DNA from: Terriglobia bacterium
Lineage (GTDB): Bacteria; Acidobacteriota; Terriglobia; Terriglobales; Acidobacteriaceae
Direction of reading: 5' to 3'
Length of the DNA: 64,000 bases
NCBI GenBank assembly: GCA_020072845.1
Contig: JAIQGF010000011.1
Location: forward strand, 186,001 to 250,000
In this document: one piece after another, positions 12,255-52,943 of the stretch
Layout of the letters: every line of letters begins with the position of its first letter
Numbering within the stretch: the first letter of the stretch is position 1
Made by a program: the position numbers and the translations under genes
The notes under the pieces: generated by a model
What the model saw: only the letters and a program-made list of their open reading frames with translations
Told to the model about the DNA's origin: nothing
The model's database searches: none

Positions 12255-13505
12255 CTAGATTTTGATAAATACCTTGTTCCGATACATAACCCACGCCAGC
12301 ACCATGAAAGTTATTACATAGGCGGATGCATACATCACCGACGCATTCTCCGCCCCCGCCAAGGGCGCAAACACCGTCCCATACACCCACGCCTTGTACG
12401 TCACCCCCGGCCGCACGTAGTGCTTGACGCTGAATTCCGCCAGCGCGTCCGACGCCGCGTACACCGTGATGGCGTTGCTTCCATACCAGACAAACGGCGC
12501 GCCCCACCTCCGCCATCCTCGGATTTCCACCATCCAGTAGCAAAGTGCCAGCGCCGCCAGCGCGAACCCGCCGGTGAACAGCACGTACGAGCTCGTCCAC
12601 ATATTCTTGTTGATCGGAAACCACCGCCCCCACACTTCGCCCACCACCATCAACACCGCCCCTGCCACCACCATCCCCTGGACCTTCTGAACTGAAGCTG
12701 ACCCCGGTTGCCCCACCCTTATCGCTCCCGGGTTTGGAGCGATAGGGTGGGGATTTTCTTCACCGATCATCCGATCACCCGATCGTCCGATCACCCGATT
12801 TTCCTGGCTCAACCACTCCCCGGTGAACACTCCAATCAGCGTCGTCACCACCGCCGGGATCGTGCTCAGCAACCCCTCCGGATCGAAGCGGTGCGCGATC
12901 CACAAATGTTCGTACAGGAGCTTACGGTCAACAAATCCCGCCAGGTTTCCATCCATCGTCAGATCGAATCCCGGCACCCGCGTCATCAGCAGCCAATACC
13001 CAAGCAGCAGCCCCGCCGCGATCCCCGCCCGCGCCCGCCGGCCGCAATACAGCACAATCGCCGACGCCACCAGGTAGACCACCGCGATGCGCTGCAGCAC
13101 TCCGTAGATTCTTACCGTGTGCAGGTTAAACGACCTTCCCCAGAACGCCAGCGCTAACCCGATGGCAAAAATAATCGCGCTGCGCTGCACCACATGCCGC
13201 AGCAGTTCGCCGCTCGTCGCCCCGCGCCGCCGCCGCGCCTCGAACGACAGCACCATGGACACGCCCACAATAAACAAGAAGAAGGGAAAGATCAGGTCGG
13301 TCGGCGTCCACCCGTGCCACTTGGCGTGGTCCAGCGGCCAGTACACCGCGTTCCAGTTCCCGGCATTGTTCACCAGGATCATGCCCGCGATCGTCATCCC
13401 GCGAAACACGTCCAGCGACACCAATCTCGCCGGCATCGCTCCCGCGCGTGCGCTTTCCGACTTCGTGTGTGCTACGGACGCTGTCGTTCCCATCGTGGCC
13501 GCCAT
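12255..13505 (-). CDS. Membrane acyltransferase of the HGSNAT/NagX-like family (DUF1624/DUF5009-type)
   Basis: This polytopic inner-membrane protein (416 residues, about 10 hydrophobic segments) matches bacterial relatives of heparan-alpha-glucosaminide N-acetyltransferase, which transfer acetyl groups to amino sugars across the membrane. The family signature [20 protein letters not shown] opens the domain, followed by [21 protein letters not shown] with the conserved His. Residues before about 24 are a hydrophilic leader, so an internal ATG ([13 protein letters not shown]) is a possible alternative start. In the loop near residues 230-270 an in-frame repeat block (bases 12697-12815) interrupts the family sequence. 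It reads GEENPHPIA...AIRVGQP. The catalytic N-terminal half is unaffected. Confidence 0.88.
12697..12815 (-). repeat. In-frame palindromic element and GATCGG tract inside the acyltransferase gene
   Basis: The element has facing arms GCCCCACCCTTATCGCTCC and GGAGCGATAGGGTGGGG (12712-12758). An adjoining tract of GATCACCCGATC type (about 12768-12800) reads [13 protein letters not shown] on the coding strand. Both parts are read without a stop. The same palindrome family occurs at 15171, 33807, 35138, 39043, 45856 and 50833. Confidence 0.88.
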
Positions 13506-13683
13506 TCTAGCCCCGATTGACGTCGATTCCCTGCCCGAATTGCATCAGCTACGAACCAAGCCAGTAAATCGGTGGAACAAACTACCTGTTTCATGGCTTT
13601 AAACTGTCGAAAAATCGCCAATAATAGTTAATAAGTGGACCAAGCGCTCTACCGCTGCTGTCTCAATTTGAGATTTGCACAAT
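13506..13683. other. Spacer on the acyltransferase side of the parA region
   Basis: This moderately AT-rich stretch contains an AGTGGACCAAG motif (13634-13643) and a run AATAATAGTTAATAAG (about 13619-13635). No gene is supported. Together with the sites at 13684-13775 it could form part of a replication or partition region. Confidence 0.4.
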
Positions 13684-13699
13684 TGTTCTACGTAGAACA
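13684..13699. promoter_or_regulatory. parS-like site 1
   Basis: TGTTCTACGTAGAACA is a perfect 16-bp palindrome. It differs from the parS form TGTTCCACGTGGAACA at two symmetric positions. It lies 155 bases before parA and is followed by CTGTGGAAAA. ParB is expected to nucleate here. Confidence 0.75.
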
Positions 13700-13701
13700 T
13701 C

Positions 13702-13757
13702 TGTGGAAAACTTCCATCCCCACCCGGTTATCAACACGCCTCCAAGACTTTTCCACA
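13702..13757. promoter_or_regulatory. Cluster of three DnaA-box-like nonamers
   Basis: TGTGGAAAA (13702-13710, reverse of TTTTCCACA), TTATCAACA (13728-13736) and TTTTCCACA (13749-13757) each differ from TTATCCACA at one base. They lie between the two parS-like sites. This is compatible with DnaA binding at an origin or at the parAB promoter; an origin is not proven. Confidence 0.45.
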
Positions 13758-13759
13758 AT

Positions 13760-13775
13760 TGTTCCACGTAGAACA
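13760..13775. promoter_or_regulatory. parS-like site 2
   Basis: TGTTCCACGTAGAACA differs by one base from the parS form TGTTCCACGTGGAACA. It lies 76 bases from site 1. Both sites sit inside a longer direct repeat that includes AATTG before and TCTGTGGAA after the palindrome. Confidence 0.8.
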
Positions 13776-13854
13776 TCTGTGGAAGACCATTTCGAGATTG
13801 CGTGCCAGCCACGCCCGTCGTACTCTTGACCACGCGAGCTCTCCGCTTAATCCC

Positions 13855-14724
<870 letters not shown>

Positions 14725-14733
14725 AGGTTGAGC

Positions 14734-15993
14734 ATGATCCAAGAAAAGAAGAGAGCTCTGGGCAGGGGACTGGAGTCGCTGATTCCGACGGCGCGGACTT
14801 TCACGCCGGCAGTGTCGGCAGCAGCGGTGGCGGCGCCGGCGGTAGTTGCGGCGCCCGTGGCCGAGATTGACCTGGCGCCGGGGGAGAGGGTGCAGGAGAT
14901 CCGGCTGGAGGAGATCGAGCCCAGCCCGTACCAGCCGCGGCGGCGGCAGGACGAAGCGGCGCTGGAAGAGCTGACGCAATCGATCCGGGCGCAGGGCGTG
15001 CTGCAACCTATCGTAATACGATATATTTCCCGGGTCGACGGTTCCCTCGCTGCGCTCGGGACAGGCTCACGGTCGATGGTCGATGGCCAAACAGTCGATG
15101 GTCAACGGTCGATGGTCGATGGCCAAACAGTCGATGGTCCGCGGTCGATGGTCGATGGCGGGAACGGAGAAAATCCCCACCCTATCTCGCCCCCTCACTA
15201 CGCTTCGGGGCAGGCTCTCCCGGGCGAGATAAGGGTGGGGCAACCGATCAACGCGCTCACGGGCGAGGGCGAGCACGCTCCAACACTTGCAGACGCGGGC
15301 CCTTCGGCTTCGCTCAGGGCAGGCTTAGACGCCCGCGCCACATCGCAGATCAGGTACCAGATCATCGCGGGAGAGCGGAGATGGCTGGCGTCGAGGCGGG
15401 CGGGACGCGCGACGGTGCCGGCGATCGTGCGCCAGGTGTCGAACCAGCAGGCGATGGAGATGGCGCTGATCGAGAACCTGCAGCGCGAAGACCTGGACTG
15501 CATGGAGATGGCGTCCGCGTTTGACCGGCTGGGGAGAGAGTTCGGTTTGACCCAGGACGAGATGTCGAAGCGGACAGGGAAGGACCGCACGACGGTGAGC
15601 AACCTGCTGCGACTGCTGAAGCTGCCGCCGGAGGTGAGGACGTCGCTGGCGCATCACGACTTGAGTTTCAGCCATGCCAAGTCGCTGATGTCGCTGGAGG
15701 ACGCGACGGTGCTGTCGGCGGCAGCGCAAAAGGTGGTGCGCGACGGGCTGTCGGTGCGGCAGACGGAAGAGTTGGTGAGTCACCTGGTGTGGCTGGGGCC
15801 GGTGAGCGAGAAGGAATCGAAGGAGCGGCAGAAGAAGCCGGAAGACCCCAACGTGCGGGCGGCGCGGATGGACCTGGAGCAACGGCTGGGATGCCGGGTG
15901 AAGATCCAGGATAAGAATGGAAAAGGTAAAGTGGTGATCGAGTACAAGACGCTGGAGGACTTCGACCGGATCGTGGAAGCGCTGGGAAGATAG
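14734..15993 (+). CDS. parB: Chromosome partitioning protein ParB with a ~110-residue repeat-derived insertion
   Basis: ParB is the CTP-dependent parS-binding clamp. The protein has RALGRGLESLIP at the start, LEEIEPSPYQPRR and GVLQPIVIR, then the catalytic-loop motif AGERRWLASRRAG, followed by helix-turn-helix segments (LTQDEMSKRTGKDRTTVSNLLRL) and a C-terminal dimer domain. Between GVLQPIVIR and YQIIAGERRW normal ParB has only a few residues; here about 111 codons (15022-15354) of dispersed repeats are read in frame, so the protein is about 419 residues rather than about 290-310. The insert separates strands of the CTP-binding fold, yet all flanking motifs are intact, so function may be retained. 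The ATG at 14734 has AAGG 6 bases upstream; a TTG lies at 14728. Confidence 0.94.
   Translation: MIQEKKRALGRGLESLIPTARTFTPAVSAAAVAAPAVVAAPVAEIDLAPGERVQEIRLEEIEPSPYQPRRRQDEAALEELTQSIRAQGVLQPIVIRYISRVDGSLAALGTGSRSMVDGQTVDGQRSMVDGQTVDGPRSMVDGGNGENPHPISPPHYASGQALPGEIRVGQPINALTGEGEHAPTLADAGPSASLRAGLDARATSQIRYQIIAGERRWLASRRAGRATVPAIVRQVSNQQAMEMALIENLQREDLDCMEMASAFDRLGREFGLTQDEMSKRTGKDRTTVSNLLRLLKLPPEVRTSLAHHDLSFSHAKSLMSLEDATVLSAAAQKVVRDGLSVRQTEELVSHLVWLGPVSEKESKERQKKPEDPNVRAARMDLEQRLGCRVKIQDKNGKGKVVIEYKTLEDFDRIVEALGR
15022..15354 (+). repeat. Composite in-frame insertion in parB built from three repeat families
   Basis: In order: a GGTCGATGG heptamer tract in several imperfect copies (15033-15165, read SMVDGQTVDGQRSMVDG), the CCCCACCCTATCTCGCC palindrome with a CTTCGGGGCAGGCT centre (15171-15245), and a GGGCGAGGGC...GCCCGCGCCACAT element (15256-15352). 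The whole length is open in the parB frame. Confidence 0.9.
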
Positions 15994-16588
15994 GCTACGG
16001 GCTTCGGGCTTCAGGCTTCAGGCTTCAGGAAATTGACGGGGACGGCTGGGGGACGAGGTGGCGAAATCAGGGCGATCTGGGCGGCGGAGGTTAATCCCTC
16101 AGGGGCTAAAGCCCAGTATTCTCGCGGTGTGAGCGGCACGGCTGAAGCCGTGCCCTTCCCAGAAAAGACTATTTAGTCAGCGAGCGGGCGCGGCGAGGGC
16201 CGCGCCTTTGGTGTGTTTGGACCACTGCGGCGTGAATACGGCAGGGAATTGGGCCGCTGGGCGGCTGGGAATGGGGATGTTGTTCCACGCGATGATCAGT
16301 GTGATTCGTAGCGAGGGAGATGCGCCAGGGAAACGGGCGGAATTGGAAGATTGCAGATTGAAGATTGACGATTTGGGGAGCTAGAGCGCTTCCCGAGTCG
16401 GTGTGGCTGTCAACACAAACCCGAGATCCCTCGACTCGGGTGTCCCGCGCACGACCACCCCAGCACGCCGCTTCGACTGCGCTCAGGGCAGGCTCCAGCA
16501 GGCGTGCCGGGGACCCCGGTTACAAAAGCGCGCGGGAGCCCTTTCCTCGCTCGGGATGACACTGAGGTATGTCAGCCATGGAACTGCT
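15994..16588. repeat. Long spacer of dispersed repeats downstream of parB
   Basis: The spacer contains a GGGCTTCAGGCTTCAG tract (16001-16030), the palindrome GGCACGGCTGAAGCCGTGCC (16136-16155, seen again at about 41975), an outer copy of the GTTGTTCCACGCGATGATCA repeat (16273-16323), a GATTGCAGATTGAAGATTG tract (16350-16375) and a CGACTGCGCTCAGGGCAGGCT element (about 16470-16492). No gene is supported. Confidence 0.65.
16205..16323 (+). repeat. Outer direct repeat, left copy
   Basis: The segment runs from a TTTGGACCACT motif to GAGGGAGATGCG. It is similar to 20633-20752, and the last about 50 bases are nearly identical. It lies outside the left copy of the small membrane-protein gene. Confidence 0.65.
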
Positions 16589-17032
16589 CTAGGGGCCAGG
16601 GCGGGCACGGAACGCTTGCGCCGTTTCTGCGCGCGACAAATGCCAGGCGATGATCACGCGCACGATGATTCCCAGGCCGCCCAAGATCAACGCTCCGGGT
16701 TGCACCATGGCGGCCGCGGCTGAGACGGGCGGCACCAGCATCACGATGCCGGCGATGGCAACCAACATGGCCGCGCGCCGGACCAGGTTGATGCGCCGCA
16801 TGAGACCCCAGGCTATCGCGATCGCGACGAGGGCGATCAGCAGAAACATGTAGGCACCGGAGAGTTCCAGTCCGAAGAGCAGAGGTGCGCCGGCGGCCAT
16901 CGAGATCACGCCCGGTCGGAGCAGTATCAGCAGGCCGGCGATTCCCAGGTAGATTCCGCAGAGCGCAAACAGCACCGCGATGGCACGGACGCCGGAGGGG
17001 AAGTGGGTCGCGGTTGAATCGCTCATGCTCAT
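16589..17032 (-). CDS. Small four-helix membrane protein, unknown function
   Basis: I do not recognise the family. The 147-residue protein has a short polar N-terminus (MSMSDSTATHFPSGVRA) and four hydrophobic segments (about residues 17-40, 50-75, 84-103 and 110-130). It is therefore predicted to be an integral membrane protein. Its 5' half plus upstream bases (16853-17066) is duplicated at 20421-20628, on the far side of the restriction gene. This suggests the restriction gene entered next to, or through, a duplication of this gene. This copy is full length and may be functional. Confidence 0.6.
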   Translation of the reverse strand: MSMSDSTATHFPSGVRAIAVLFALCGIYLGIAGLLILLRPGVISMAAGAPLLFGLELSGAYMFLLIALVAIAIAWGLMRRINLVRRAAMLVAIAGIVMLVPPVSAAAAMVQPGALILGGLGIIVRVIIAWHLSRAETAQAFRARPGP

Positions 17033-17066
17033 CCGATTCGGTTCGACGGTCTGTGATTCAATTTGG
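16853..17066 (-). repeat. Direct repeat flanking the type IIG gene, left copy
   Basis: This segment covers the first about 60 codons of the membrane-protein gene and about 34 bases upstream. It is about 90% identical by eye to 20421-20628 and in the same orientation. Similarity stops abruptly at about 17066, where the restriction-gene segment begins. Confidence 0.8.
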
Positions 17067-20628: not shown

Positions 20629-21040
20629 TGAACTCTCGGGTGTTTTGGTCCACTTGTGGGCGAGTTGGGGCCGATTTGAGCGGCGGGCGTGGCGGGAACG
20701 AGGGATGTTGTTCCACGCGATGATCAGCGTGATTCGTGGCGAGGGAGATGCGCGAGGGGAGTCCGTTTCGGAATCAAGGGGGACGGGGTAAGGGTCGCCC
20801 GATCCCACCCTTCGCCCCTTCGACTGCGCTCAGGGCAGGCTTCAGGGGGCGAAAGGTTGGGCCACCCGCGGGAAACGGTGGATCATGTTCCGAAAACAGA
20901 ACAAGACCGTTTTTCAGGACGGGTCCGTCGAGCAATGGTGTTACGGTGCATGAAACTTACGGGGACTTTGTGGGCTGCCATGGAGACGTTCGGGCTGCTC
21001 ACTCGGTCGTCTCTCTTCGGAGCATCGCGAGGTGGTTACC
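20629..21040. repeat. Spacer with outer direct repeat (right copy) and dispersed elements
   Basis: Positions 20633-20752 are the right copy of the outer repeat (TTTGGTCCACT motif at 20644-20654; GTTGTTCCACGCGATGATCA from about 20705). Positions 20795-20870 hold a diverged copy of the CCCCACCC palindrome family with a CGACTGCGCTCAGGGCAGGCT centre. No gene is seen. Confidence 0.65.
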
Positions 21041-28370: not shown

Positions 28371-28497
28371 GGTTGCGCGCGGGAGCGGGCGGGCAGTCCG
28401 GCGGGTGTACCAGCCTCTCTCCGGAGTCTGTGTGAGAACTGTGCCGCGCCGCTGGCGCTCACCGTCATTGTCTTCGCATTCCCACCGCTGCCGCGGT
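28371..28497. other. Short spacer before the tandem repeats
   Basis: Nothing recognisable is seen in this stretch apart from a GCCGCGCCGCTGGCGCTC segment resembling the edge of the following repeat. Confidence 0.4.
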
Positions 28498-28756
28498 GGG
28501 CTAACGAATTCCGCGCCTCCGGCGCTGTAGAGCTGGCGCTGGGCTAACGAATTCCGCGCCTCCGGCGCTGTAGAGCTGGCGGTGGGCTAACGAATTCCGC
28601 GCCTCCGGCGCTGTAGAGCTGGCGCTGGGCTAACGAATTCCGCCGCTCCGCGGCTGTAGAGCTGGCGCTGGGCTAACGAATTCCGCGCCTCCGGCGCTGT
28701 AGAGCTGGCGGTGGGCTAACGAATTCCGCGCCTCCGGCGCTGTAGAGCTGGCCATT
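28498..28756. repeat. Six tandem copies of a 43-bp unit
   Basis: Units begin with CTAACGAATTCCGC at 28501, 28544, 28587, 28630, 28673 and 28716, exactly 43 bases apart, and end with GTAGAGCTGGCG. Most contain GCGCCTCCGGCGC, a small hairpin; the fourth has GCCGCTCCGCGGC instead, a compensated variant. There are no spacers between units, so it is not a CRISPR array. A single inverted copy lies at about 75-125. Confidence 0.9.
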
Positions 28757-29029
28757 TCGACCACTGCTGTCTACGAAATTGAGTTCTCACCCAGACTCTC
28801 GAACGCGTGTTTCTTCTCCAAGTCCTGGCGCGCCATCCGTGCCTATTCCTCAATATTTGTGTGCCATCCGTGGAGCGCGAGTGCGAACCGCAGTCGGTGT
28901 CCTTCCGTAAGTGTCGCGAGGCGATACTTCGGCTCATCCTAGCAAGCAGCAAGACTAAGCGCCGTAAGCAGGGGGTTCGCGAGGGGCCGTGAATGCGCCT
29001 GGGCGCGCGGCACCCGGGGAGGAGGGCAC
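28757..29029. other. Spacer upstream of the PilZ-HisKA gene
   Basis: The spacer carries a GCGCGCCATCCGTGCC / TGTGCCATCCGTGG pair (about 28827-28876), a spacer repeat of the type seen near 32150. A GGGGAGGAGGG SD run sits just before the next start. No gene is seen. Confidence 0.4.
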
Positions 29030-32204: not shown

Positions 32205-33815
32205 CTAAGAACGGGCGCGGGTTTTGATGCGGATGGGGGTGCCGACGAAGCCGAAGGCGCGGCGAAGCTGGTTCTCCAGGAAACGTTCGAAGGAGAAGTG
32301 GAGCTTGACGGCGCGGTCGGTGAAGAGCACGAAGGTCGGGGGCGAGGCGCTGGCCTGGGTCATATACAGGATTTTGACGCGGCGGGAGTGGGGGACGGAG
32401 GCACGGTCAAAATCAACGCTCTGCACGAAGCGGTTGATGGCGGCGGTGGGAATGCGCTTGCGGCGCTCGGCGGAGACCTGGGCGACGAGTTCGAAAATTT
32501 TGTCCACGTCTTTGCCGGACTTGGCGGAGACGAAGACCACGGGGGCGTAGTCGAGGAACTTGAGTTGCTGGCGGAGTTCTTCCTCGTAGAGACGGCGGTC
32601 GGCGGGCTTGTGACCGTTGCCGCTGCCGGCGCGGGCGGCGATGCGGGCATTCATGCTGCCGCGGTGAAATTTGACGCCGCCGTGGTGGCGCGTGGTGGCG
32701 CGGCGGGTCGCCTCATCTTCTTTTCTCTTGGCGATCAGGTCCCACTTGTTGACCACGATGATGACGGAGCGTCCGCTCTCGTGGGCGTAGCCGGCGATAT
32801 TGGCATCGAGCGCGGCGACGCCCTCGGCAGCATCAATGACAAGCAGGGCGATGTCGGCTTGCTCGAGATGCTGGCGCGCCATCACGACGGAAAGTTTTTC
32901 CGCGACCAGGCTGGTCTTGCCCTTGCGGCGGATGCCGGCGGTGTCAATGAAGCGGTAAGCGTGGCCGCCGCGTTCCACCAGTTCGTCCACCGCGTCGCGG
33001 GTGGTGCCGGGAGTGGGGGAGACGATGGCGCGGTCGGTGGAGGTGAGCGCGTTGAGCAGGGTGGACTTGCCGACGTTGGGGTGTCCGATGATGGCGACGC
33101 GGGTCTCGCGCTGTGCACGCGCGTCCTCCGAGCGACCACCTTCGTCCACGGGTTCGGCGGGCTGGCCTTCGATGGCGGTGTCTTCTGTGTGGGGGCGGGT
33201 CTCTGACCCGCCATCCCGGGGAGGAGACCCGGGCCACACGGTCTCGGGGATGGCTTGCATGACAGCGTCGAGCAGGTCGGCGACGTTGAGGCCGTGCTCG
33301 GCGGAAATGGGGAAGAGGTTGCGGATGCCGAGGCTGCGGAATTCTTCGGCATAGGGCTCGAGCTTGGGCGTGTCCACCTTGTTGACGGCGAGGAACAACG
33401 GCTTGCCGCCGCGGATGAGCAGGCGGGCGAGTTCGATGTCGGGGGCGGTGAGTTCGGAGCGGCCGTCCACGACCATGACGATGGCGTCGGCTTCGTCGAG
33501 GGCAACGCGGGCCTGGCGAAAAATCTCCGCCGGGATGTGTTCCTTGTCATCGGGAATGATGCCGCCGGTGTCGATGACGCGGAGGCGGCGTCCGCTCCAC
33601 TCGGTTTCGCCGTAGAGACGGTCGCGGGTGATGCCGGGCTCGTCGGTCACGATAGCGCGGCGGCGTCCGATGAGCTTGTTAAACAGCGTGGACTTGCCGA
33701 CGTTGGGGCGGCCAACGATGGCCAGGGTGGATACGTGAGTCGCGGATTGGGAGGAATTGGACACGGATTTGTAATTTGTAATTGGTAATTTGTAATTGCT
33801 GGTGGAAATCCCCAC
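32205..33815 (-). CDS. der: Ribosome biogenesis GTPase Der (EngA)
   Basis: Der is an essential double-GTPase for 50S assembly. The protein has two G domains: [13 protein letters not shown] and NKVD in the first, and GHPNVGKST, DTAG and NKWD in the second. A C-terminal KH-like domain includes TDRAVKLHFSFERFLENQLR. The ATG at 33815 would translate repeat sequence (SNYKLPITNYKS); a GTG at 33764 (VSNSSQSATHV) is the more natural start, so the true N-terminus is uncertain. The inter-domain linker (bases about 33115-33250) contains a GGGTCTCTGACCC-type element. A basic insertion (GGVKFHRGSMNARIAARAG) precedes the C-terminal domain. Confidence 0.95.
   Translation of the reverse strand: MGISTSNYKLPITNYKSVSNSSQSATHVSTLAIVGRPNVGKSTLFNKLIGRRRAIVTDEPGITRDRLYGETEWSGRRLRVIDTGGIIPDDKEHIPAEIFRQARVALDEADAIVMVVDGRSELTAPDIELARLLIRGGKPLFLAVNKVDTPKLEPYAEEFRSLGIRNLFPISAEHGLNVADLLDAVMQAIPETVWPGSPPRDGGSETRPHTEDTAIEGQPAEPVDEGGRSEDARAQRETRVAIIGHPNVGKSTLLNALTSTDRAIVSPTPGTTRDAVDELVERGGHAYRFIDTAGIRRKGKTSLVAEKLSVVMARQHLEQADIALLVIDAAEGVAALDANIAGYAHESGRSVIIVVNKWDLIAKRKEDEATRRATTRHHGGVKFHRGSMNARIAARAGSGNGHKPADRRLYEEELRQQLKFLDYAPVVFVSAKSGKDVDKIFELVAQVSAERRKRIPTAAINRFVQSVDFDRASVPHSRRVKILYMTQASASPPTFVLFTDRAVKLHFSFERFLENQLRRAFGFVGTPIRIKTRARS
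33115..33250 (-). repeat. Repeat-derived linker between the two G domains of der
   Basis: The segment includes GGGTCTCTGACCC, GGGTCTCCTCCCC-type arms and GCCACAC. The same parts occur at 37008-37070, 39196-39260 and 59463-59487. It is translated as PGSPPRDGGSETRPHTED. Linkers here vary in the family, so insertion is likely but not certain. Confidence 0.6.
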
Positions 33816-33925
33816 CCTATCTCGCCCCTTCGGTTGCGTTCAGGACAGGCTTCACCGGGCGAGATAAGGGTGGGGCAACCGCCGCAAAAGTACCAATTAC
33901 AAATTGCAAATTACAAATGCCCTAA
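33765..33925. repeat. Two-armed AATTTG tract with palindromic element between der and dinG
   Basis: TTTGTAATTTGTAATTGG copies (33768-33800) face CCAATTACAAATTGC copies (33892-33920). Between them sits the CCCCACCCTATCTCGCC palindrome with a GGACAGGCTTC centre (33807-33882). The element nests inside the tract pair. Confidence 0.85.
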
Positions 33926-33957: not shown

Positions 33958-36024
33958 GTGTCCACATCTTCCCAACCCGCACAAACCGCTGCTTCGGGCT
34001 CGCTATACAGCTTTTTTGCGCCCGGCGGGCTGCTGTCGAAGACGCATCCGGCGTACGAGTTCCGCCGCGGGCAGTTGCAGATGGCGGAAGAGGTGGCCAA
34101 GGCGCTGGAGGAACGGCGTCACCTGATTGTCGAGGCCGGGACGGGCACCGGCAAAACGCTGGCGTACCTGCTGCCGGTGATCCGCTCGGGCAAGCGCGTC
34201 ATTATTTCTACCGGCACGAAGACCCTCCAGGAACAGCTCTTCTATAAAGATGTTCCGTTTCTCGCACAGCACATTGGCCAACTCAAAGTCTGCTACATGA
34301 AGGGGCGGAACAATTACCTGTGCCGCAAAAAGCTCTACGACCTGACCGACCAGCCGGTGCTGAGCGGGCTGGAGGAGATCGAGCAATACCGGGCGATCGC
34401 GGAGTGGGAGAAGACGACGCCGACGGGCGACCGCTCGGAGCTGGTGAAGATTGCGGAATCGAGCCAGTTGTGGCCGAAGCTGGATGCGCGCGCGGAGGCG
34501 TGCATCGGGCAGAAATGCCAGCAGTTCGACCGCTGCTTCATCACCGAGATGCATCGCAAGGCGGCGGAGAGCGACATCATCATCGTCAATCACCATCTGT
34601 TTTTCGCCGACCTGGCGATCAAGATGGCGACCGAGGGCGAAGCGGATGCCGGCATCCTGCCGGATTGCGCGGCGGTGATCTTCGACGAGGCGCATGAGCT
34701 GGAGGACGTGGCCGCGAACTATTTCGGGGTGAGCGTGAGCACGCCGCGGTTCGAGGAGCTGGCGCGCGACGTGGACGGGACGTTGCAGAAGGCGCAACTG
34801 GCGTCGGGGAAGCTGTTGCAGGCCACGGCGGGAGTTCGCGAGCACGCGCAGAGATTTTTCGCGCTGCTGCCGGCGGGAGAGGGAAGGTTTGCGTTTGAGA
34901 ACCGGCCCGAGTTCCTGGAAGAGAACGGGGACGAGTACCAGGCTGTGATGCGGGCGCTGGGCAGGTTGCAGGCGGAGCTGCAAGCGGTGAAGAACAAGCC
35001 CGACGAGCTGCACATGCTGGCGCGGCGGGCGCAGGAATTGCAGGTGCAACTCGGGTTCGTGATGGAGAACCAGGACAAGAACACGGTGTTCTGGATCGAG
35101 CGGAGGGGTGCAGGTTTCTCGACGCGGAGCCGCAAGGAAAAATCCCCACCCTATCGCCTCCAAACCCGGGAGGCGATAAGGGTGGGGCAACCGCGTGCAC
35201 GAGCCACGCAAGGTCGGCAGCATGTCTTCCTGCAAGCGACGCCGATTGATGTGTCGCAAATCCTGCGCCAGTACCTGTTCGACAAGCTGGAAACGTCGGT
35301 GCTGACCTCGGCAACGCTGGCGGTGAGCAACGGGTTCGAATACACGCGCAAGCGGCTGGGGCTGGAGCACGCGCGCGAGCTGGTGGTGCCGTCGCACTTC
35401 GATTACGAGTCGCAAGCCATGCTGTACATCCCGCCGGACCTGCCCGATCCGCGCGTGCCGGAGTTCACGGCGAAAGCGGCGGAGCGCATCCGGCGTCTGC
35501 TGGAGATCACGCAGGGGCGCGCCTTCTGCCTGTTCACCAGCTACGCGCAGATGCACGAAATCCATGACCGGCTGCTGGGCGAACTGGCGTACCCGGTGAT
35601 GATCCAGGGGCAGGCGCCGAAGAACGCGCTGCTGGAGGAGTTCCGCAGTACGCCGAACGCGGTGCTGTTCGCGACGGCATCGTTCTGGCAGGGCGTGGAC
35701 GTGCAAGGCGAGCAGTTGAGCTGCGTGATCATCGACCGGCTGCCGTTCGCGGTGCCGAACGATCCGGTGGTGGCGGCGCGCATCCGGGCGATTGATGCGG
35801 CGGGCGGAAACGCGTTTTTCGATTACCAGGTGCCGGCGGCGGTGATCACGCTGAAGCAGGGATTCGGGCGGCTGATCCGCTCGCTCGACGACCGCGGCCT
35901 GCTGGCATTGATGGATAACCGGATATTGAAGAAGCAGTACGGCAAGGTATTCCTGGAGAGTCTGCCGAAATATCGCAGGACGACACAGATGGCGGACGTG
36001 GAGAAATTCTTTGGAGTGGAATAG
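33958..36024 (+). CDS. DinG/XPD-family ATP-dependent DNA helicase
   Basis: This is a superfamily 2 helicase of the YoaA/DinG type, predicted to unwind 5'-3' with an Fe-S cluster. The 688-residue protein has Walker A VEAGTGTGKTLAY, motif Ia STGTKTLQEQL, and cysteines in CRKK, CIGQKC and CF consistent with the Fe-S domain. VNHHLFFADL, DEAH (FDEAHELED), and the C-terminal motifs FATASFWQGVD and QGFGRLIRS also appear. The GTG at 33958 is the chosen start; no better ATG precedes the conserved YEFRRGQLQMA. In-frame repeat sequence occupies bases about 35108-35222 (residues about 384-421) between WIERRG and VFLQATPIDV, which are adjacent in relatives. Confidence 0.93.
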   Translation: MSTSSQPAQTAASGSLYSFFAPGGLLSKTHPAYEFRRGQLQMAEEVAKALEERRHLIVEAGTGTGKTLAYLLPVIRSGKRVIISTGTKTLQEQLFYKDVPFLAQHIGQLKVCYMKGRNNYLCRKKLYDLTDQPVLSGLEEIEQYRAIAEWEKTTPTGDRSELVKIAESSQLWPKLDARAEACIGQKCQQFDRCFITEMHRKAAESDIIIVNHHLFFADLAIKMATEGEADAGILPDCAAVIFDEAHELEDVAANYFGVSVSTPRFEELARDVDGTLQKAQLASGKLLQATAGVREHAQRFFALLPAGEGRFAFENRPEFLEENGDEYQAVMRALGRLQAELQAVKNKPDELHMLARRAQELQVQLGFVMENQDKNTVFWIERRGAGFSTRSRKEKSPPYRLQTREAIRVGQPRARATQGRQHVFLQATPIDVSQILRQYLFDKLETSVLTSATLAVSNGFEYTRKRLGLEHARELVVPSHFDYESQAMLYIPPDLPDPRVPEFTAKAAERIRRLLEITQGRAFCLFTSYAQMHEIHDRLLGELAYPVMIQGQAPKNALLEEFRSTPNAVLFATASFWQGVDVQGEQLSCVIIDRLPFAVPNDPVVAARIRAIDAAGGNAFFDYQVPAAVITLKQGFGRLIRSLDDRGLLALMDNRILKKQYGKVFLESLPKYRRTTQMADVEKFFGVE
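35108..35222 (+). repeat. In-frame palindromic element inside the dinG-like gene
   Basis: Arms CCCCACCCTATCGCCTCC and GGAGGCGATAAGGGTGGGG (35146-35187) are read KSPPYRLQTREAIRVGQP. A diverged flank (GFSTRSRK... and RARATQGRQ) is part of the same insertion. Confidence 0.88.
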
Positions 36025-38339: not shown

Positions 38340-39029
38340 ATGAAACGGGCATGGTACATAGCGGCAGTGGTCGTGCTGGTGCTGGTGTTGCCGGCGATGG
38401 GGCAGATTCGGGGAGCACCGGCGTCGGTGACTTCGATGGCGCCGGGGCGGAGCTATAATCCCGGACCTCCGGCGAGCGTGACCTCGCTGGGCCCGAACGG
38501 CTACTCGACACCGTGTTCCGGCTGCACGCAGAACCGGTTTACCAGCGGGTTTTACTTTCCCGGCGCGTACAATGGCGGGCCGGCGAACCTGCGCCCGAAG
38601 CGGCATCGAAATAACAACGCGGGCGCCTATTACCCGATTTACGTGCCTTACGCGTACCCGGTGGCGGTGGCAGCCGAACCTGAGCCGGAGGCGGAAGCGG
38701 AACCCGATCCGCCCGCGCCCACGATCTTCGAACATCGCGCCACCAGCGAGCGTGTGCACGATTCGTCGCACTACGCGAACCCGCCGACAGTCGCGGATGA
38801 TCAGTCTCCGGCAGATGCACGGGAGCAGATACCGGTGGTGCTGGTGTACCTCGACGGCCACGAGCAAGAGGTCAAGAACTATGCCATCGTGGGGCCAACG
38901 CTGTACGACCTGGGCGCGTTTGTGGCGCACAAGATTCCGCTGGCGGAGCTGAATTTGAAGGCGACGATCAAGGCGAATGACGATCGCGGGGTGGAGTTTA
39001 GCGTGCCGTCGTGGGTGAAGATGGAGTAG
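38340..39029 (+). CDS. Exported protein of unknown function
   Basis: The 229-residue protein has a signal peptide (MKRAWYIAAVVVLVLVLPAMG). A Gly/Pro/Ser-rich segment follows with CSGC (about residue 59-62). After a Tyr/Pro-rich stretch and an acidic PEPEAEAEPDPPAP run (about 112-127), the C-terminal domain (about 160-229) begins VVLVYLDGHEQEVKNYAIVG. This arrangement is known to me only from acidobacterial hypothetical proteins. The location is probably periplasmic. It starts about 260 bases before gyrA on the same strand. Confidence 0.68.
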   Translation: MKRAWYIAAVVVLVLVLPAMGQIRGAPASVTSMAPGRSYNPGPPASVTSLGPNGYSTPCSGCTQNRFTSGFYFPGAYNGGPANLRPKRHRNNNAGAYYPIYVPYAYPVAVAAEPEPEAEAEPDPPAPTIFEHRATSERVHDSSHYANPPTVADDQSPADAREQIPVVLVYLDGHEQEVKNYAIVGPTLYDLGAFVAHKIPLAELNLKATIKANDDRGVEFSVPSWVKME

Positions 39030-39288
39030 GCGTGCTTACGGAAAATCCCCACCCTATGTCGCCACCTGGGTCCGCTTCGGGGCAGGCTTCCGCAGGCGAC
39101 ATAAGGGTGGGGCAACCGCGCTCAATTCTGCTATAATGAGTCGTGCTCTTCTTGGGCGTAACTTCCTGCAAATTAAGAAGGTTAGCTTGTATGGCGCGGG
39201 TCTCTGACCCACCCTTTCCAGCCCCTGCGAAAACACGGGTCGAAGACCCGTGCCACACAGGCTGAAGCTGAAAGCTGAGAACTAATTC
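39030..39288. repeat. Spacer upstream of gyrA with three repeat types
   Basis: It carries the CCCCACCCTATGTCGCC palindrome (39043-39117), CGGGTCTCTGACCC and CGGGTCGAAGACCCGTGCC elements (39198-39255), and a GCTGAAGCTGAAAGCTGAG tract (39263-39281) just before the start codon. TATAATGAG at about 39132 resembles a -10 box, suggesting the gyrA promoter is between the repeats. Confidence 0.7.
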
Positions 39289-45690: not shown

Positions 45691-45951
45691 GGGAAGTCTA
45701 GAGTCATTCTAAAACACGGAGTGAGGCATTGCCGATTGACGATTGTTGATTGTTGATTGCAGACAGCCGACTGCGTGGTTGCATTCATCCCAAGGTCATT
45801 CCGCGGACTTGCCAGTTGTTGGTTGTTAGCGAAAGATATTGACGATTGTCGGTTGAGAAAAACCCCACCCTATCTCGCCAACCCCGGGCGAGATAAGGGT
45901 GGGGCAACCACGACAAGGGCGGGACAACCGCGACCCGCCGGAGGAGGAACG
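45691..45951. repeat. Repeat spacer between the VKOR fusion and the cupin gene
   Basis: It holds a GATTGACGATTGTTGATTG tract (45730-45760), a GTTGTTGGTTGTTAGCG tract (45818-45834), and a short CCCCACCCTATCTCGCC palindrome (45864-45906) with almost no centre. A second CAACCACGACAAGGGCGGG run follows. Divergent promoters must lie here but are not evident. Confidence 0.7.
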
Positions 45952-46323
45952 ATGGAAGTCGTGAATGTGGCGCAGAAGCTGGCGCAGTTTTCCGAGTACT
46001 GGTCGCCGAAGATAGCCGGCGAGGTGAACGATTCCTACGTCAAGCTGGTGAAGTTCAAGGGCGAGTTCGTCTGGCACCACCACGAGCAGGAAGACGAACT
46101 GTTCCTGGTAATTCGCGGAAGGTTGCGGATGAAGTTTCGCGAGCAGGGCGTGGAGCGGGAGGAGACGGTGCTGCCGGGGGAATTTATCATCGTGCCGCGC
46201 GGGCTGGAGCACATGCCGATCGCCGACGAGGAAGTCGAGGTCATGCTGCTGGAACCGAAGACGACGCTGAACACGGGGAACGTGCGGAATGAACGGACGA
46301 GGGAAGTGCTGGGGAGGGTGTGA
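45952..46323 (+). CDS. Cupin-domain protein
   Basis: The 123-residue protein is a single cupin barrel. GEFVWHHHEQEDELFLVIRG provides the HxHx(n)E metal-binding motif, and PGEFIIVPRGLEHMP provides the second motif with a Pro-Gly turn and His. It therefore probably binds a divalent metal. No function can be named. The ATG at 45952 has GGAGGAGG 6 bases upstream; the frame from 45757 crosses repeat sequence and is not coding. It may be cotranscribed with the methyltransferase-like gene after it. Confidence 0.85.
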   Translation: MEVVNVAQKLAQFSEYWSPKIAGEVNDSYVKLVKFKGEFVWHHHEQEDELFLVIRGRLRMKFREQGVEREETVLPGEFIIVPRGLEHMPIADEEVEVMLLEPKTTLNTGNVRNERTREVLGRV

Positions 46324-47537: not shown

Positions 47538-48218
<681 letters not shown>

Positions 48219-48341: not shown

Positions 48342-49291
48342 ATGGTTATGCCTGGACGAGCCCAGTCGATTGGAAGAGCGCCAGGCCGTGAACGTGCGGT
48401 GGTGCTGCTGAGCGGCGGGATGGATTCGTGTGTGTGCGCGGCACTGGCGGCGCGCGACTATGACGCGGCGGCGCTGCACGTGATGTACGGCCAGCGGACG
48501 GAAGAGCGCGAACGGCGGGCGTTTGAAGAAGTGTGCCAGCGTCTGGGGATTAAGCGGCGGATGGTGATCCGGAATGAAGCGCTGCGGCAGATTGGGGGAT
48601 CGGCGCTGACGGATCGTTCGTTGGCGGTGCCGCGGGCGGCGGGAGAGTTTGAGGGTCGCGACCCGGAAGGTGCGGGTGGGAGTAGGGGGCCTTCGACTCG
48701 GTCGCAACGCGCCCAAAACCGGGGCGCGTTGGACCTCGCTCAGGATGACAACCGGAAGAATGTTGATGCACACGCGGGGGCGCGTGTGCCACACCAGCCC
48801 CGCGGTTCTACCCAGCCCGGCGGTTCCACCACCGAAAATGCCGGCGCTTCAAACGCGGGCGAGGGCGCCCGCGCCACATCCGATGTTCCGATCAGGAAGT
48901 GCTGGGGGCGGAAAAGATCATGATTGGGGCGGTGGAACAGGACAGCTCGGGGTACCCGGATTGCCGGCCGGCGTATTATCGGGCGTTCAATGAGGTGATC
49001 CGCGCCGGGACCCGGGAAGGGAAGATCGAAATCGTGACCCCGCTGATCGGGATGCGAAAGGCGGAGATTGTGACGCTCGGCCTTGAATTGGGCGCACCCT
49101 TCGATTTAACGTGGAGTTGCTACAGCCGGGAAGACCGGGCGTGCGGCGTGTGCGAAAGCTGCGTATTGCGGCGGCGCGCGTTCACGGCGGCAGGTGCGCG
49201 CGATCCCATACCGTACGAGCAAGAGAGCGCGTGCGAGCACCCCAGCAAGCCATCAGCAGGCCTGCCGGGGACCCGGTGCGACCGGCGGTAA
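48342..49291 (+). pseudogene. queC: Disrupted 7-cyano-7-deazaguanine synthase gene
   Basis: QueC makes preQ0 using ATP. The 5' part (frame of 48342) has the PP-loop VVLLSGGMDSCVCAALAA, LHVMYGQRTEERE and SALTDRSLAVP. The 3' part (another frame, from about 48890) resumes at [24 protein letters not shown] and ends with the zinc-binding cysteines C...CGVCESC. Between them are about 230 bases of dispersed repeats, and the conserved segment with the VPFRN-type motif is missing. The frame differs by one base across the junction. A frameshift from sequencing error would not restore the missing motif. The gene is probably inactive, leaving queD and queE orphaned unless another queC exists. Confidence 0.8.
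48650..48885 (+). repeat. Repeat block within the broken queC
   Basis: It contains CGACTCGGTCGCAACGCGCC and GGCGCGTTGGACC (48694-48752, nearly identical to 30886-30932). A GCGCGTGTGCCACACC element and a GCGGGCGAGGGCGCCCGCGC element (48857-48876, related to one in parB) follow. Confidence 0.85.
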
Positions 49292-49348
49292 GTAATAAGA
49301 TTTGGCCGCGCGCGGGACATGCGCGGAATTCATAACGGGAGATTGGCA

Positions 49349-50419
49349 ATGAAACGCAGAATTATTCTGTGCGTGTTAGCGGCGGTGATGGCGGTGTTGT
49401 CGGCTCCGGCGGCATGGGGCCAACTGGCTGCGATTAAGGGTTATGTGAAGGACAGCGAGGGCAAAATGGTTCCGTTCGCCGTGGTCCAGTTGACGAACCG
49501 AGAGAACGGGCGGCGGTACGATTTGAAGACCGATAAGAACGGCAATTATTATTCACTCGGCATCATCTCCGGCCGATATGACGTGAAGATCAGCAAGGAC
49601 GGGAAACTGCTCTTCAACTTGACCAACGTCCCGGTGACGCTGGCGGTCGGCGAAGAGACCGTAGTCAACATTGACCTCACGCAGGAGAAGCCGCAGGTCA
49701 GCGAGGAACAAAGAAAGCAGCAGGAGTCCGTCCAGCAAGAGAACCTCAAGATCAAGGGGCTGAACGAGAAGCTGGCGGCAGCTGCGGCGGCGGAGCAGGC
49801 GGGCAATTACGATCTCGCCATCCAGACGCTGGCCGAGGCGACGCAGCTTGATCCGACACGCGACGTGCTGTGGTTCAAGCTGGCCGATGCGGAGCGCCAG
49901 AGCGCGGCCAAGATCACGACGCCCGCCGACAAAACCGCTCGCTATCAGAAAGCCGCCGAGGATTTCAGGAAAGCCATCGCCATCAAGCCGATGGGGGCTT
50001 ACTACAACAATCTCGGCGATGCGCAGGCCAAGTCGGGCGACACCGCAGCTGCGATTGCTTCATACAGCCAGGCGGCGCAGATCGATCCACAGAATGCCGC
50101 GATGTATTACTACAATGAAGGCGCGGTGCTAACCAACACGGGCAAGGTGGACGAGGCTACGCAGGCGTTCGACAGGGCGATCCAAGCTGATCCCACCAGA
50201 GCCGAGGCCTATTACCAGAAGGCGATGAATCTGCTGAACAAAGCGACTCTGAAGGGGAATAAGATGGAAGCGCCTCCGGGAACTGAGGAAACGCTGAAGA
50301 AATACCTGGAACTGCAGCCGACCGGCGAACACGCCGAAATCGCGAAACAAATGCTTGCCCAGTTGGGGGCAGAGGTGGAGACCTCGTTCGGCAAGCAGAA
50401 GACCAAGACCAAGAAGTAA
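49349..50419 (+). CDS. Exported TPR protein with N-terminal carboxypeptidase-regulatory-like domain
   Basis: The 356-residue protein has a signal peptide (MKRRIILCVLAAVMAVLS to about residue 24). A carboxypeptidase-regulatory-like beta domain follows (about 28-115: GYVKDSEGKMVPFAVVQLTN, GRYDVKIS). A Lys/Gln-rich coiled stretch then leads into four or five tetratricopeptide repeats (about 150-340, e.g. AAIASYSQAAQIDPQNA). It is probably periplasmic and a protein-protein scaffold. The ATG at 49349 marks the signal peptide; GGGAGA lies upstream. It is closed by a terminator and is not in the same unit as queC. Confidence 0.85.
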   Translation: MKRRIILCVLAAVMAVLSAPAAWGQLAAIKGYVKDSEGKMVPFAVVQLTNRENGRRYDLKTDKNGNYYSLGIISGRYDVKISKDGKLLFNLTNVPVTLAVGEETVVNIDLTQEKPQVSEEQRKQQESVQQENLKIKGLNEKLAAAAAAEQAGNYDLAIQTLAEATQLDPTRDVLWFKLADAERQSAAKITTPADKTARYQKAAEDFRKAIAIKPMGAYYNNLGDAQAKSGDTAAAIASYSQAAQIDPQNAAMYYYNEGAVLTNTGKVDEATQAFDRAIQADPTRAEAYYQKAMNLLNKATLKGNKMEAPPGTEETLKKYLELQPTGEHAEIAKQMLAQLGAEVETSFGKQKTKTKK

Positions 50420-50438
50420 CGGCGGTTTCGTGAGGATC

Positions 50439-50474
50439 CGGCCCGGGGCGAGAGCTTCGGGCCGTTTTTGTTTT
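50439..50474 (+). terminator. Intrinsic terminator after the TPR gene
   Basis: CGGCCCG (50439-50445) pairs with CGGGCCG (50458-50464) and is followed by TTTTTGTTTT. It lies about 20 bases after the TPR stop codon. Confidence 0.85.
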
Positions 50475-50564
50475 AGCTGTCAGCTCTCAGCTATCAGCTT
50501 TCAGCCGACGAAAGTAATGAGCGGCCTTGAAAGTTGACTCTCAAGACTTGAAACTAGGGAGCAC
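50475..50564. repeat. Short spacer with AGCTGTCAGCTCTCAGC tract before recG
   Basis: A TCAGCTCTCAGCTATCAGCTT tract (50481-50503) is followed by CTCTCAAGACTTGAAACTAG. No separate gene is seen; AGGGAGC supplies the recG SD sequence. Confidence 0.6.
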
Positions 50565-52943
50565 ATGCTCGAACTGAATACTCCGGCGCAGTACGTGAAG
50601 GGGATAGGTCCGCGCCTGGCGGAGGTGGTGGCCACCAAGGGCATCACCACGGTCGAGGACCTGCTGTACTACCTGCCCTTTCGCTATGAAGACCGGTTGA
50701 ATCCGCGGCGCATCGGAGAATTGCGGCCGGGCGAGATGGCGAGCGTGATCGCCGAGGTGAGAACGTCGGCGCTGTTTCGAACCAAAAGGATGCCGCTGTT
50801 TGAGCTGACGGTGGGGGATCCGGTGCTGGGCAGAGAAAACCCCCACCCCTTCGACAAGGTCAGGGCAGGCTCTGCCGCTCCCCTTCGACTGCGCTCAGGG
50901 CAGGCTCCGGCGGGAGCGACAAGGGTGGGCCACCCAGGAGGCGAGATAAGGGTGGGGCAACCGGCGGGCTTGTTTGGGGCTGGCGCGCGGGCGATGCTGA
51001 AGTGCATATGGTTCAACGGCACCTATTTAAAGGACCGGTTTCAGCCGGGGCAGTTGGTGGCGCTATACGGGAAAGTTGAACAATCGAAGCGGGGGCGCGA
51101 GCGGCTGCAACTGATCAACCCGCAATTCGAAATCCTGGATGATGGCGACGCGCTGGAGTCGATTGCCGAGTCAACCGAGATCGGGCGGATCGTGCCGGTT
51201 TACGAGTCGGCAGGCAGCGGCAAGGTGACGTCGCGCTGGTTCCGGCGAGTGATCCACGGCGCGCTGGAAAACCTGACGCCGGACATCGTGGACGCAATCC
51301 CCGGGGCGGTGCAGCGGCGGATGGGGCTGATGCCCCGCCGGGAGGCGTTCCGGAGGGCGCATTGGCCGGAGGAGTCGGCGGGGCTGGAGGACCTGCAGGC
51401 GGCACGGACCCCGGCGCAGATCCGGCTGATCTTCGAAGAACTGTTTTTCCTCGAGCTGGGATTGGAGCTGAAGCGGAAACGCATGCGGGCGCTGCCGGGG
51501 ATCGCGTTCGGCATTGACGACCGGGTGCGGGAGGCGATCAAGCGCATCCTGCCGTTTCATCCCACGGCGGCGCAGAAGCGGGTGCTGAAGGAGATCGCCG
51601 AGGACATGAAGCAGCCGGCGCCGATGCGGCGGCTGTTGCAGGGCGATGTCGGGTCGGGGAAGACGATTGTGGCGCTGGAGGCGGCGATCATCGCGATTGA
51701 GAACGGCTACCAGGCGGCGTTGATGGCGCCCACGGAAATCCTGGCGACGCAGCATTACCTGTCGGCGCGGCGGATGCTGGAAAAGGCGGGGTATCGCATC
51801 GTGCTGCTGACCGGGTCGGTGGAGGAGGGGAGGAAGCGCGACATCCGGCGGCACATCGCGCAGGGCAACGCGCAACTGGTGATCGGGACGCACGCCTTAA
51901 TAGAAGAGAAGGTCGAATTCGACAACCTGGGGCTGGTGATCGTGGACGAGCAGCACCGGTTCGGGGTGATGCAGCGGCTGAAGCTGATGAAGAAGGCGCT
52001 GGCGGCGGAGGAAGAACAGTCGACGGTCGATGGTCGACGGTCGATGGCCGGGACGCGAAGCACGGATGTTGCAACCGGTCCCCAAGACCTTCAGCCGGAC
52101 ACGCTGGTGATGACGGCGACACCGATTCCGCGGACGCTGGCGCTGACCCTGTATGGCGACCTGGACGTCAGTGTGCTCGACGAGATGCCGCCGGGACGGA
52201 CGCCGATCATGACCCGGCGCGTGGGCGACGAGCGGGCAGAGGAAGTCTTCGCCTTTGTGCGCAAGCAGGTGGCGGCAGGGCACCAGGCGTACGTGGTCTA
52301 CCCGGTGATCGAGGAAAATGAGGAGAAAGAGATCAAGGCGGCAACCAAGATGTACGACGAGATCCGGCGGCGGATCCTGCCGGACTTGCGGATCGGGCTG
52401 CTGCATGGACGCCTGGATGCCGAGCAGAAGGACGAGATCATGCAGCGCTTCCAGGCGGGGCAGATAGACGTGCTGGTTTCGACCACGGTGATCGAGGTGG
52501 GGGTGGACGTTGCCAACGCCACCGTGATGGTGATCGAACACGCCGAGCGCTTTGGGTTGGCGCAATTGCACCAGTTGCGTGGCAGAATCGGGCGGGGAGC
52601 GGCCAAGTCATTTTGCGTGCTGGTGACCGGCGGCAAAGTGACGGCGGAGGCAGAGCAGCGGCTGGACACCATGGTGCGTACCACCGACGGATTCGAAATC
52701 GCCGAAACCGACCTGCAACTGCGTGGGCCGGGAGAGTTCTTCGGTACCCGGCAGGCCGGACTGCCGGGATTTCGGGTGGCCAACCTGCTCCGCGACCGGG
52801 AACTGCTGGAGGCGGCGCGTCGGGAGGCGGCGGTGGTGGTATCGGGCAAAGACCCGGAAGTTTCACCGCTGGAGGTATCGCGAGCGTTGGTGCATCTGCG
52901 GTCGCACTGGCAGCGGAGGTACGGTCTGGTGGAAGTTGGGTAG
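50565..52943 (+). CDS. recG: ATP-dependent DNA helicase RecG
   Basis: RecG remodels stalled forks and Holliday junctions. The 792-residue protein has the N-terminal wedge/OB domain (KGIGPRLAEV, YYLPFRYEDR) and Walker A GDVGSGKTIVAL (about residues 359-370). DEQHRFGV (motif II), VMTATPIPRTLALT (motif III) and DVLVSTTVIEVGVD and RGRIGRG (motifs V and VI) follow. Two in-frame repeat insertions are present: bases 50815-50991 in the wedge domain and 52016-52085 between motif II and motif III. All motifs remain intact. ATG at 50565 with AGGGAG upstream. Confidence 0.96.
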   Translation: MLELNTPAQYVKGIGPRLAEVVATKGITTVEDLLYYLPFRYEDRLNPRRIGELRPGEMASVIAEVRTSALFRTKRMPLFELTVGDPVLGRENPHPFDKVRAGSAAPLRLRSGQAPAGATRVGHPGGEIRVGQPAGLFGAGARAMLKCIWFNGTYLKDRFQPGQLVALYGKVEQSKRGRERLQLINPQFEILDDGDALESIAESTEIGRIVPVYESAGSGKVTSRWFRRVIHGALENLTPDIVDAIPGAVQRRMGLMPRREAFRRAHWPEESAGLEDLQAARTPAQIRLIFEELFFLELGLELKRKRMRALPGIAFGIDDRVREAIKRILPFHPTAAQKRVLKEIAEDMKQPAPMRRLLQGDVGSGKTIVALEAAIIAIENGYQAALMAPTEILATQHYLSARRMLEKAGYRIVLLTGSVEEGRKRDIRRHIAQGNAQLVIGTHALIEEKVEFDNLGLVIVDEQHRFGVMQRLKLMKKALAAEEEQSTVDGRRSMAGTRSTDVATGPQDLQPDTLVMTATPIPRTLALTLYGDLDVSVLDEMPPGRTPIMTRRVGDERAEEVFAFVRKQVAAGHQAYVVYPVIEENEEKEIKAATKMYDEIRRRILPDLRIGLLHGRLDAEQKDEIMQRFQAGQIDVLVSTTVIEVGVDVANATVMVIEHAERFGLAQLHQLRGRIGRGAAKSFCVLVTGGKVTAEAEQRLDTMVRTTDGFEIAETDLQLRGPGEFFGTRQAGLPGFRVANLLRDRELLEAARREAAVVVSGKDPEVSPLEVSRALVHLRSHWQRRYGLVEVG
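50815..50991 (+). repeat. In-frame composite palindromic element in recG
   Basis: Left arm CCCCCACCCCTTCGAC is followed by two CTTCGACTGCGCTCAGGGCAG-type centres, a GGGTGGGCCACCC arm and the GGCGAGATAAGGGTGGGGC arm. It reads RENPHPFDKVRAG...GEIRVGQPAG. The normal wedge strand sequence resumes at GARAMLKCIWFNGTYL. Confidence 0.88.
52016..52085 (+). repeat. Second in-frame GGTCGATGG tract in recG
   Basis: The heptamer tract is read [16 protein letters not shown] between EEEQ and TLVMTATPIPRT. It is the same family as the tracts in mnmE, parB and selD. Confidence 0.82.

Follow-up and report, generated by a model that had tools for sequence, protein, structure and literature searches.

A REP-type palindrome family in Terriglobia genomes, read mostly in one frame inside conserved genes

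The 64,000-nucleotide stretch considered here (the window; Terriglobia bacterium assembly GCA_020072845.1, contig JAIQGF010000011.1, positions 186,001 to 250,000) carries repeated copies of a short palindrome, four of them inside conserved genes that are translated straight through it (Table 1). An earlier note on the window had listed the copies at positions that prove correct to within a few bases. The exact right arm, GATAAGGGTGGGGC, occurs on the + strand at 15228, 33863, 35175, 45892 and 50945 and on the - strand at 12710; there is also a copy with one mismatch at 39100, and a diverged copy begins at 20803. With up to three mismatches allowed, 32 matches to a 13-mer are found in the window, where 14.7 are expected and none of 100 shuffles attains 32, while across the whole genome there are 11 occurrences of the exact 14-mer and none of its reversed control. 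The palindrome is a repetitive extragenic palindromic (REP) type element, a known kind of element, which forms a dispersed family in this genome of the Terriglobia (Acidobacteriota). Over three related genomes, its copies inside genes are read in one frame far more often than the supply of open frames predicts. This bias is well supported, and selection is its probable, though not proven, cause.

Pfam and NCBIfam models name the four host genes in the window as an acyltransferase, parB, a helicase of the DinG/YoaA type and recG, as the earlier note had done. That note also held that no copy brings a stop and that each lengthens a loop, and both points stand. None of the four copies contains an internal stop; all four are translated with IRVGQP (preceded by the residues GA, GE, EA and GE, respectively) and three with ENPHP, the exception being the DinG copy, whose 45-nt core shifts the left arm. 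In alignments of the four host proteins with their orthologues, the loop at the insert site is shorter or different. ParB proteins from two other genera of the family have no insert at the REP site. The acyltransferase lacks the insert in one congener (G002) and carries a long-loop REP in another (G001), and RecG, with its composite REP in this genome, has a plain REP in G002 and an apparent remnant in G001. In parB, the REP copy is preceded by GTCGATGG repeats, which are translated too. All four in-gene copies have one orientation relative to the host gene. A scan of the window with Rfam yielded no family at gathering threshold for the palindrome.

Table 1. Copies of the palindrome in the window and the genes that contain four of them (window coordinates)
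Position	Strand	Feature	Evidence or remark
12255..13505	-	Host gene: HGSNAT_cat / NagX-like membrane acyltransferase	PF07786, 50.2 bits (over cut-off); NF046061, 179 bits (below cut-off)
12706..12759	-	REP copy, 54 nt, in NagX-like acyltransferase gene	Read as 19 residues
14728..15993	+	Host gene: parB	PF02195, PF17762, PF23552; TIGR00180 over cut-off
15168..15245	+	REP copy, long-loop type, 78 nt, in parB	Read GENPHPISPPHYASGQALPGEIRVGQP
20803..20863	+	Diverged palindrome	Without TATC/GATA stem, without AACC tail
33803..33880	+	REP copy, long-loop type	13-nt overlap with called 5' end (33815, minus strand) of der/engA
33958..36024	+	Host gene: YoaA/DinG-type DNA repair helicase	NF053712, 758 bits, over cut-off
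35137..35192	+	REP copy, 45-nt core, in dinG/yoaA helicase gene	Arms translated KSPPYR (left) and IRVGQP (right)
39040..39117	+	REP copy, long-loop type	Flanked by gyrA and by a called gene whose end is at 39029; outside called genes
45856..45909	+	REP copy	Immediately upstream of cupin gene (called at 45952); outside called genes
50565..52943	+	Host gene: recG	NF008168 and TIGR00643 over cut-off
50834..50962	+	Composite REP copy in recG	Comprises a left arm, two loop repeats and two right arms (one diverged, one exact)

In the REP unit, a 17-pair hairpin with a single bulged A stands between GGAAAAT and AACC. Its head tetranucleotide is mostly GGAA or AGAA, and no head of the GTAG or CGTC type is present. 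A catalogue of at least 157 copies (55, 52 and 50 in three congeneric genomes) was drawn from the stretches around the covariance-model matches listed; it admits only copies with good arms and thus favours well-kept ones. The recG copy is absent from it because of its irregular structure. Two core lengths prevail: 43 nt in 84 of the 157 copies, for a unit of 54 nt, and 67 nt in 35, for a unit of 78 nt; each of these unit lengths is divisible by three. In 19 copies, 96.6 per cent of the cells of the 17-pair stem are paired, and the inner stem co-varies: 21 cells are changed on both sides, with a covariation score attained by none of 500 shuffles. At E of 0.001 or less, matches to the covariance model number 70 in the genome of the window and 89 and 69 in those of two congeners, with a single weak one in a third (G003), which is without the family; these raw counts include opposite-strand echoes. 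Sixteen of the 31 genomes searched have a match to the model, but none of 12 genomes of another family does.

Many long copies contain a second repeat, CCCTTCGACTGCGCTCAGGGCAGGCT, within the loop. It lies in the window at 15300, 16469, 20816, 25480, 33826, 36043 and 50881, and it is frequent in hairpin loops with different stems. Outside catalogued REPs it has 39 matches. An outer stem of at least 6 pairs surrounds 12 of them (31 per cent; random places, 3.7 per cent), and these stems are of 11 kinds, although at least three of the 12 are uncatalogued or composite REP copies. CCCTTCGACTGCGCTCAGGGCAGGCT may insert into hairpin loops. Also, the variant with GATA in its arm is clustered, 6 of the 11 catalogued copies of this genome lying within 33 kb (window 12710-45905), which suggests local spread or homogenisation.

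A candidate agent of transposition is encoded beside some copies. Of nine Y1 transposase matches in the genome, two (G000, contigs C9 and C7) have the palindrome on either side in inverted copies, as do two more genes in G002 (C96 and C15); a partial one in G001 (C108) has a palindrome copy at its 3' end. The protein scores 112.1 bits, against a cut-off of 80, with NCBIfam NF047646, the model for REP-associated tyrosine transposases (RAYTs), and its closest match of solved structure is TnpA_REP (4er8, E 7e-11). It has HVH at residue 61 and tyrosine at 119, which we take to be the HUH motif and the catalytic tyrosine. Single-strand transposition is expected to leave no target site duplication. 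The search for one that the earlier note had proposed turned up nothing clear: with 30 offsets tried per length, a single 4-nt offset gave a count (4; shuffled mean, 0.84) above every one of 200 shuffles. Relatives of the RAYT were found at 51 loci in named genomes, all Acidobacteriota by title or genus. Palindromes were looked for at 43 of these loci with the covariance model, and 14 of the 43 have inverted copies on both sides. A RAYT gene between inverted REP copies is the published hallmark (PMC2817692). The palindrome is thus probably moved by the RAYT, to judge from the inverted arrangement.

Three RAYT genes (L142:12425-13015, L200:2135-2725 and L202:831-1445) end just beyond their own 3' palindrome, and their final residues are encoded by the REP in what proves to be the favoured frame. 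A constraint fixed throughout the phylum is not supported: among the 43 loci and a hand-picked part of 96 palindrome matches, the relatives' overlapping 3' copies are in frame 0 or 2, and others lie downstream of the gene.

Genes were called with a dicodon caller trained on 386 long open reading frames. By these calls, 76 of the 157 copies are intragenic, 61 of them with a coding signal on both sides; another 66 are intergenic, and 15 are at the edge of a gene. Genes are still avoided, considering that the coding density at the loci is 0.80, but with about half of its catalogued copies inside genes the family departs from REPs that are mostly extragenic. Orthologous sites were merged by hand from a similarity graph, giving 49 in-gene insertion events (50 if one tandem neighbour is counted apart), of which 10 are common to two or three species. 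Event 30, whose orthologue match contains stops and which may reflect a wrong gene call, counts against the favoured frame and was retained. Orthologues were located in G001, G002 and G003, allowing 88 comparisons for 45 of the 49 events: by a rough automatic classification, 43 sites are empty, 23 hold other sequence, 12 have kept the REP and 10 hold a remnant, that is, no REP is recognised in 66 of 88. In the 33 comparisons with G003, 23 sites are empty, 10 hold other sequence and none has a REP. Six genes contain two palindromes each (L140:2636-5743, L122:4256-6355, L168:2063-3688, L166:3568-6516, L203:5617-6858 and L236:3040-5889); by eye, that of L140 looks like valyl-tRNA synthetase and that of L166 like DNA polymerase I.

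Each event was assigned a frame by the position of the core's first base, reading along the gene. In frames 0, 1 and 2, respectively, there are 17, 4 and 4 events with the element in the + orientation and 20, 2 and 2 in the - orientation. The helicase copy of the window was scored as frame 1 at its left arm, though its right arm is read like the others, and the recG composite is not in this count. The repeated choice among open frames suspected in the earlier note is therefore seen in three genomes: 37 of 49 events are in frame 0, where 19.7 are expected from the stop-free frames of each element, and none of 100,000 simulations gave as many as 37. Stop codons are thus excluded as the sole cause. 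If copies simply landed in any open frame, chance would have ample room, most frames being open (121-141 of 157 copies per frame), but besides the excess over expectation, elements open in all three frames use frame 0 in 21 of 26 cases (p 9e-7), and chance is refuted as an explanation at this sample size. The bias is seen in each genome (17/20, 15/19 and 16/23), with one event per gene family (31/42), with the window events removed (35/46), in events found in one genome only (29/39), and with the tandem neighbour counted apart (38/50). A second palindrome family would have offered an independent test, but its 10 copies in the stretches examined include none in called genes.

Orientation is another matter. 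The earlier note had pointed to the common orientation of the four window copies, but over the 49 events the orientations are even (25 and 24), and a favoured frame exists for the reversed element too. An orientation bias is thereby excluded, and the uniformity within the window must be a small-sample accident. Equality of coding copies over all open frames and orientations, which that note had named as the outcome that would speak against its idea, is therefore found for orientations and not for frames.

We lean towards the view that the REP was spread by a transposase and that selection then retained the copies encoding harmless loop peptides; we infer both the role of selection in the frame bias and transposition by this particular RAYT. 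According to this model, a RAYT-type single-strand transposase, its gene flanked by inverted copies, would copy a hairpin unit, mostly of 54 or 78 nt, to other places in the genome. Since the length of the unit is usually a multiple of three and most copies are free of stops in most frames, the host gene would often stay open after a landing. Copies in loops, read as a flexible peptide rich in proline and glycine, would persist, and copies read in other frames would mostly be lost, so that a filter against peptides harmful to folding would leave the frame bias behind. The frame 0 peptides are ENPHPvaPnPGaTRVGQP forward and VAPPLSrPGlerQGGD backward. Among 129 of the 157 copies, mean disorder propensity is highest for frame 0 in each of the four classes (short or long, + or -), and of the 44 events that allow a ranking, 29 (17.7 expected) use the most disorder-promoting of their open frames (binomial 5e-4).

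Several observations weigh against this account. The residue scales for disorder and hydropathy were entered by hand, and by Kyte-Doolittle hydropathy and hydrophobic share frame 0 is not the best for short + elements. For these elements, the disorder of + frame 1 (0.311) is close to that of + frame 0 (0.324), yet they have 2 and 13 events, respectively. Copies nearest the consensus are in frame 0 less often than the rest (10 of 16, against 27 of 33); a difference of this sign would be predicted by selection, but it is not significant (p 0.17). Two of five measures of covariation in the stem are not above shuffles (pairs changed on both sides, attained by 64 of 500; further pair types, by 327 of 500). 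Also, the classes of orthologous sites are wrong in at least three cases, each hiding a REP or a remnant: event 19 in G001 (a remnant) and event 47 in G002 (a copy) were miscalled empty, and one site called other is the composite recG copy of the window. Finally, many REP-less sites hold a few other residues in its place, and no clean cut-in is therefore visible for the insertion.

Perhaps insertion itself favours one codon phase, producing the bias with no selection on the peptide. If the unit is taken to run from GGAAAAT to AACC, the two favoured readings share a start at codon position 3, so that a codon XY|Z becomes XYG ... CCZ in either orientation, a match of phase between the two favoured frames that has a chance probability of one third. 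A phase preference would also account for the rarity of + frame 1 in spite of its harmless-looking peptide, and the bias among events found in a single genome is in keeping with it. However, no strong consensus is apparent outside the element at -12 to -8, nor is there any clear target duplication, the one 4-nt offset being marginal. On balance, a codon-phase preference is possible but rather unlikely.

Inserts shared between species bear on what, if anything, is being conserved. Thirteen pairs of inserts, drawn from 9 events, differ at 47.8 of 487.5 non-synonymous sites and at 20.2 of 190.5 synonymous ones, a ratio of non-synonymous to synonymous divergence (dN/dS) of about 0.9, while in the flanks (15 of 26 alignable) the ratio is about 0.19 and 142.9 of 370.2 synonymous sites differ. 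These values speak against selection for the peptide sequence. They make it very improbable that the peptide has a positive function, such as a tag, linker or interaction motif, for which it is selected, even though similar peptides, ENPHPv(s/a)P...TRVGQP, recur in unrelated proteins and a fifth of the events (10 of 49) are common to two or three species; the remnants and unrelated sequences at the same sites likewise argue against such a function.

The lower synonymous divergence of shared inserts than of their flanks (Fisher 3e-13) hints instead at conservation as DNA. In-gene copies might be kept as DNA or RNA hairpins (a binding site, an mRNA structure or a transposase target), their coding being incidental. 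Stems indeed change less than loops in shared copies (34/540 against 46/357, p 0.001), in a set of 18 ungapped, equal-length pairs left from 140 position pairs, of which 23 had both flanks matched and many others were artefacts of neighbouring copies. One 67-nt variant is even identical in two species (G001:C331:7095 and G002:C14:57911). In both it lies outside called genes; the flanks share 87 per cent identity, and the other catalogued copies of the two genomes reach at most 83 per cent with it. The likeness of shared copies may reflect gene conversion or constraint. But the ascertainment of good-armed copies is strong, and 10 remnants stand beside the 12 kept copies, so the true divergence of inserts must be higher than measured; moreover, pairs from the same event depend on one another, the flank values come from 15 of the 26 flanks, and retention as a hairpin leaves the frame bias unexplained. 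We regard it as improbable. Selective retention of harmless peptides, as set out above, remains the explanation towards which we lean.

One might go further and suppose a selfish palindrome shaped as a tolerable protein insert, mobile DNA adapted to life in genes: its unit mostly a multiple of three, nearly all its frames open, its favoured reading a disordered linker either way and its master copy translated, again in the favoured frame, as the tail of its own transposase. We put this forward tentatively and think it doubtful.

The earlier note knew of no described element that inserts peptides in this way, but such elements have been published. Intragenic REPs of several genomes, many of them located in genes for repair, were reported by Di Nocera et al. 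2013 (PMC3733652), who discuss flexible linkers or loops as possible sites of insertion; Rickettsia palindromic elements (RPEs) are described in parts of PMC10969869, PMC2229807 and PMC3767692 as lying in frame in exposed regions of unrelated genes. The kind is therefore already known, and what this analysis adds is the lineage, the scale and the frame bias. Among the papers listed in literature searches, which did not extend to Additional file 3 of PMC3733652, none deals with this palindrome family or with a biased choice of frame by REPs inside genes.

The closest likeness is to REPtrons, for which the parts of PMC3733652 and PMC2817692 compared give a short imperfect palindrome in tens of copies and a RAYT between inverted copies. 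As here, some copies overlap the transposase gene (the "3'ov" class in figure legends of PMC3733652), and some lie inside open reading frames, many of DNA repair. However, the heads published in those parts are GTAG or CGTC, whereas here the head is GGAA, and the published REPs are mostly between genes (PMC3733652). Nor is a frame bias discussed in the text on intragenic REPs compared from that paper, whose Additional file 3, on encoded residues, fell outside the comparison. The elements with TIR-associated tyrosine transposases (TIRYT) of Acidobacteria (PMC3733652) share with the present family the phylum, a tyrosine transposase and inverted flanking repeats, some self-complementary and sometimes forming a repeated family, but their motif GGGGWSAS does not by eye fit the termini here. 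RPEs, as the portions of their literature compared describe them, are likewise in frame in unrelated genes, solvent-exposed, and absent or different in some orthologues, but they are about 100-150 bp long, occur in Rickettsia and Wolbachia and have no transposase named in those portions, whereas the units here are mostly 54 or 78 nt, in Acidobacteriota, and with a RAYT. PARCELs, in the sections of PMC2996958 compared, are also protein-coding palindromic DNA spread between genes; they form tandem 25-residue amphipathic repeats, some in surface lipoproteins, rather than single loops in core enzymes. A miniature inverted-repeat transposable element derived from an insertion sequence would carry terminal inverted repeats and a target duplication, of which latter there is here only the marginal 4-nt signal, and the transposase flanked by the palindrome is of the Y1 type.

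The three related genomes offer about fifty natural insertions in conserved proteins, many with insert-free orthologues, by which insertion preference can be tested directly against later selection in the passage of mobile DNA into protein. Evidently, "extragenic" palindromes can enter genes routinely in one lineage of Acidobacteriota, and gene alignments from this lineage should be used in the knowledge that they contain repeat-derived loops.

The window contains other repeats. GGTCGATGG repeats occur at 15069-15176, 31326 and 52015; those at 15069-15176 are translated inside ParB, whose loop content differs in each of the three species. Matches to Rfam in the window comprise five tRNAs and three Acido-Lenti-1 RNAs (83-128, 6457-6502 and 28481-28526), the third of them close to the beginning of a 43-nt tandem array (28450-28793).

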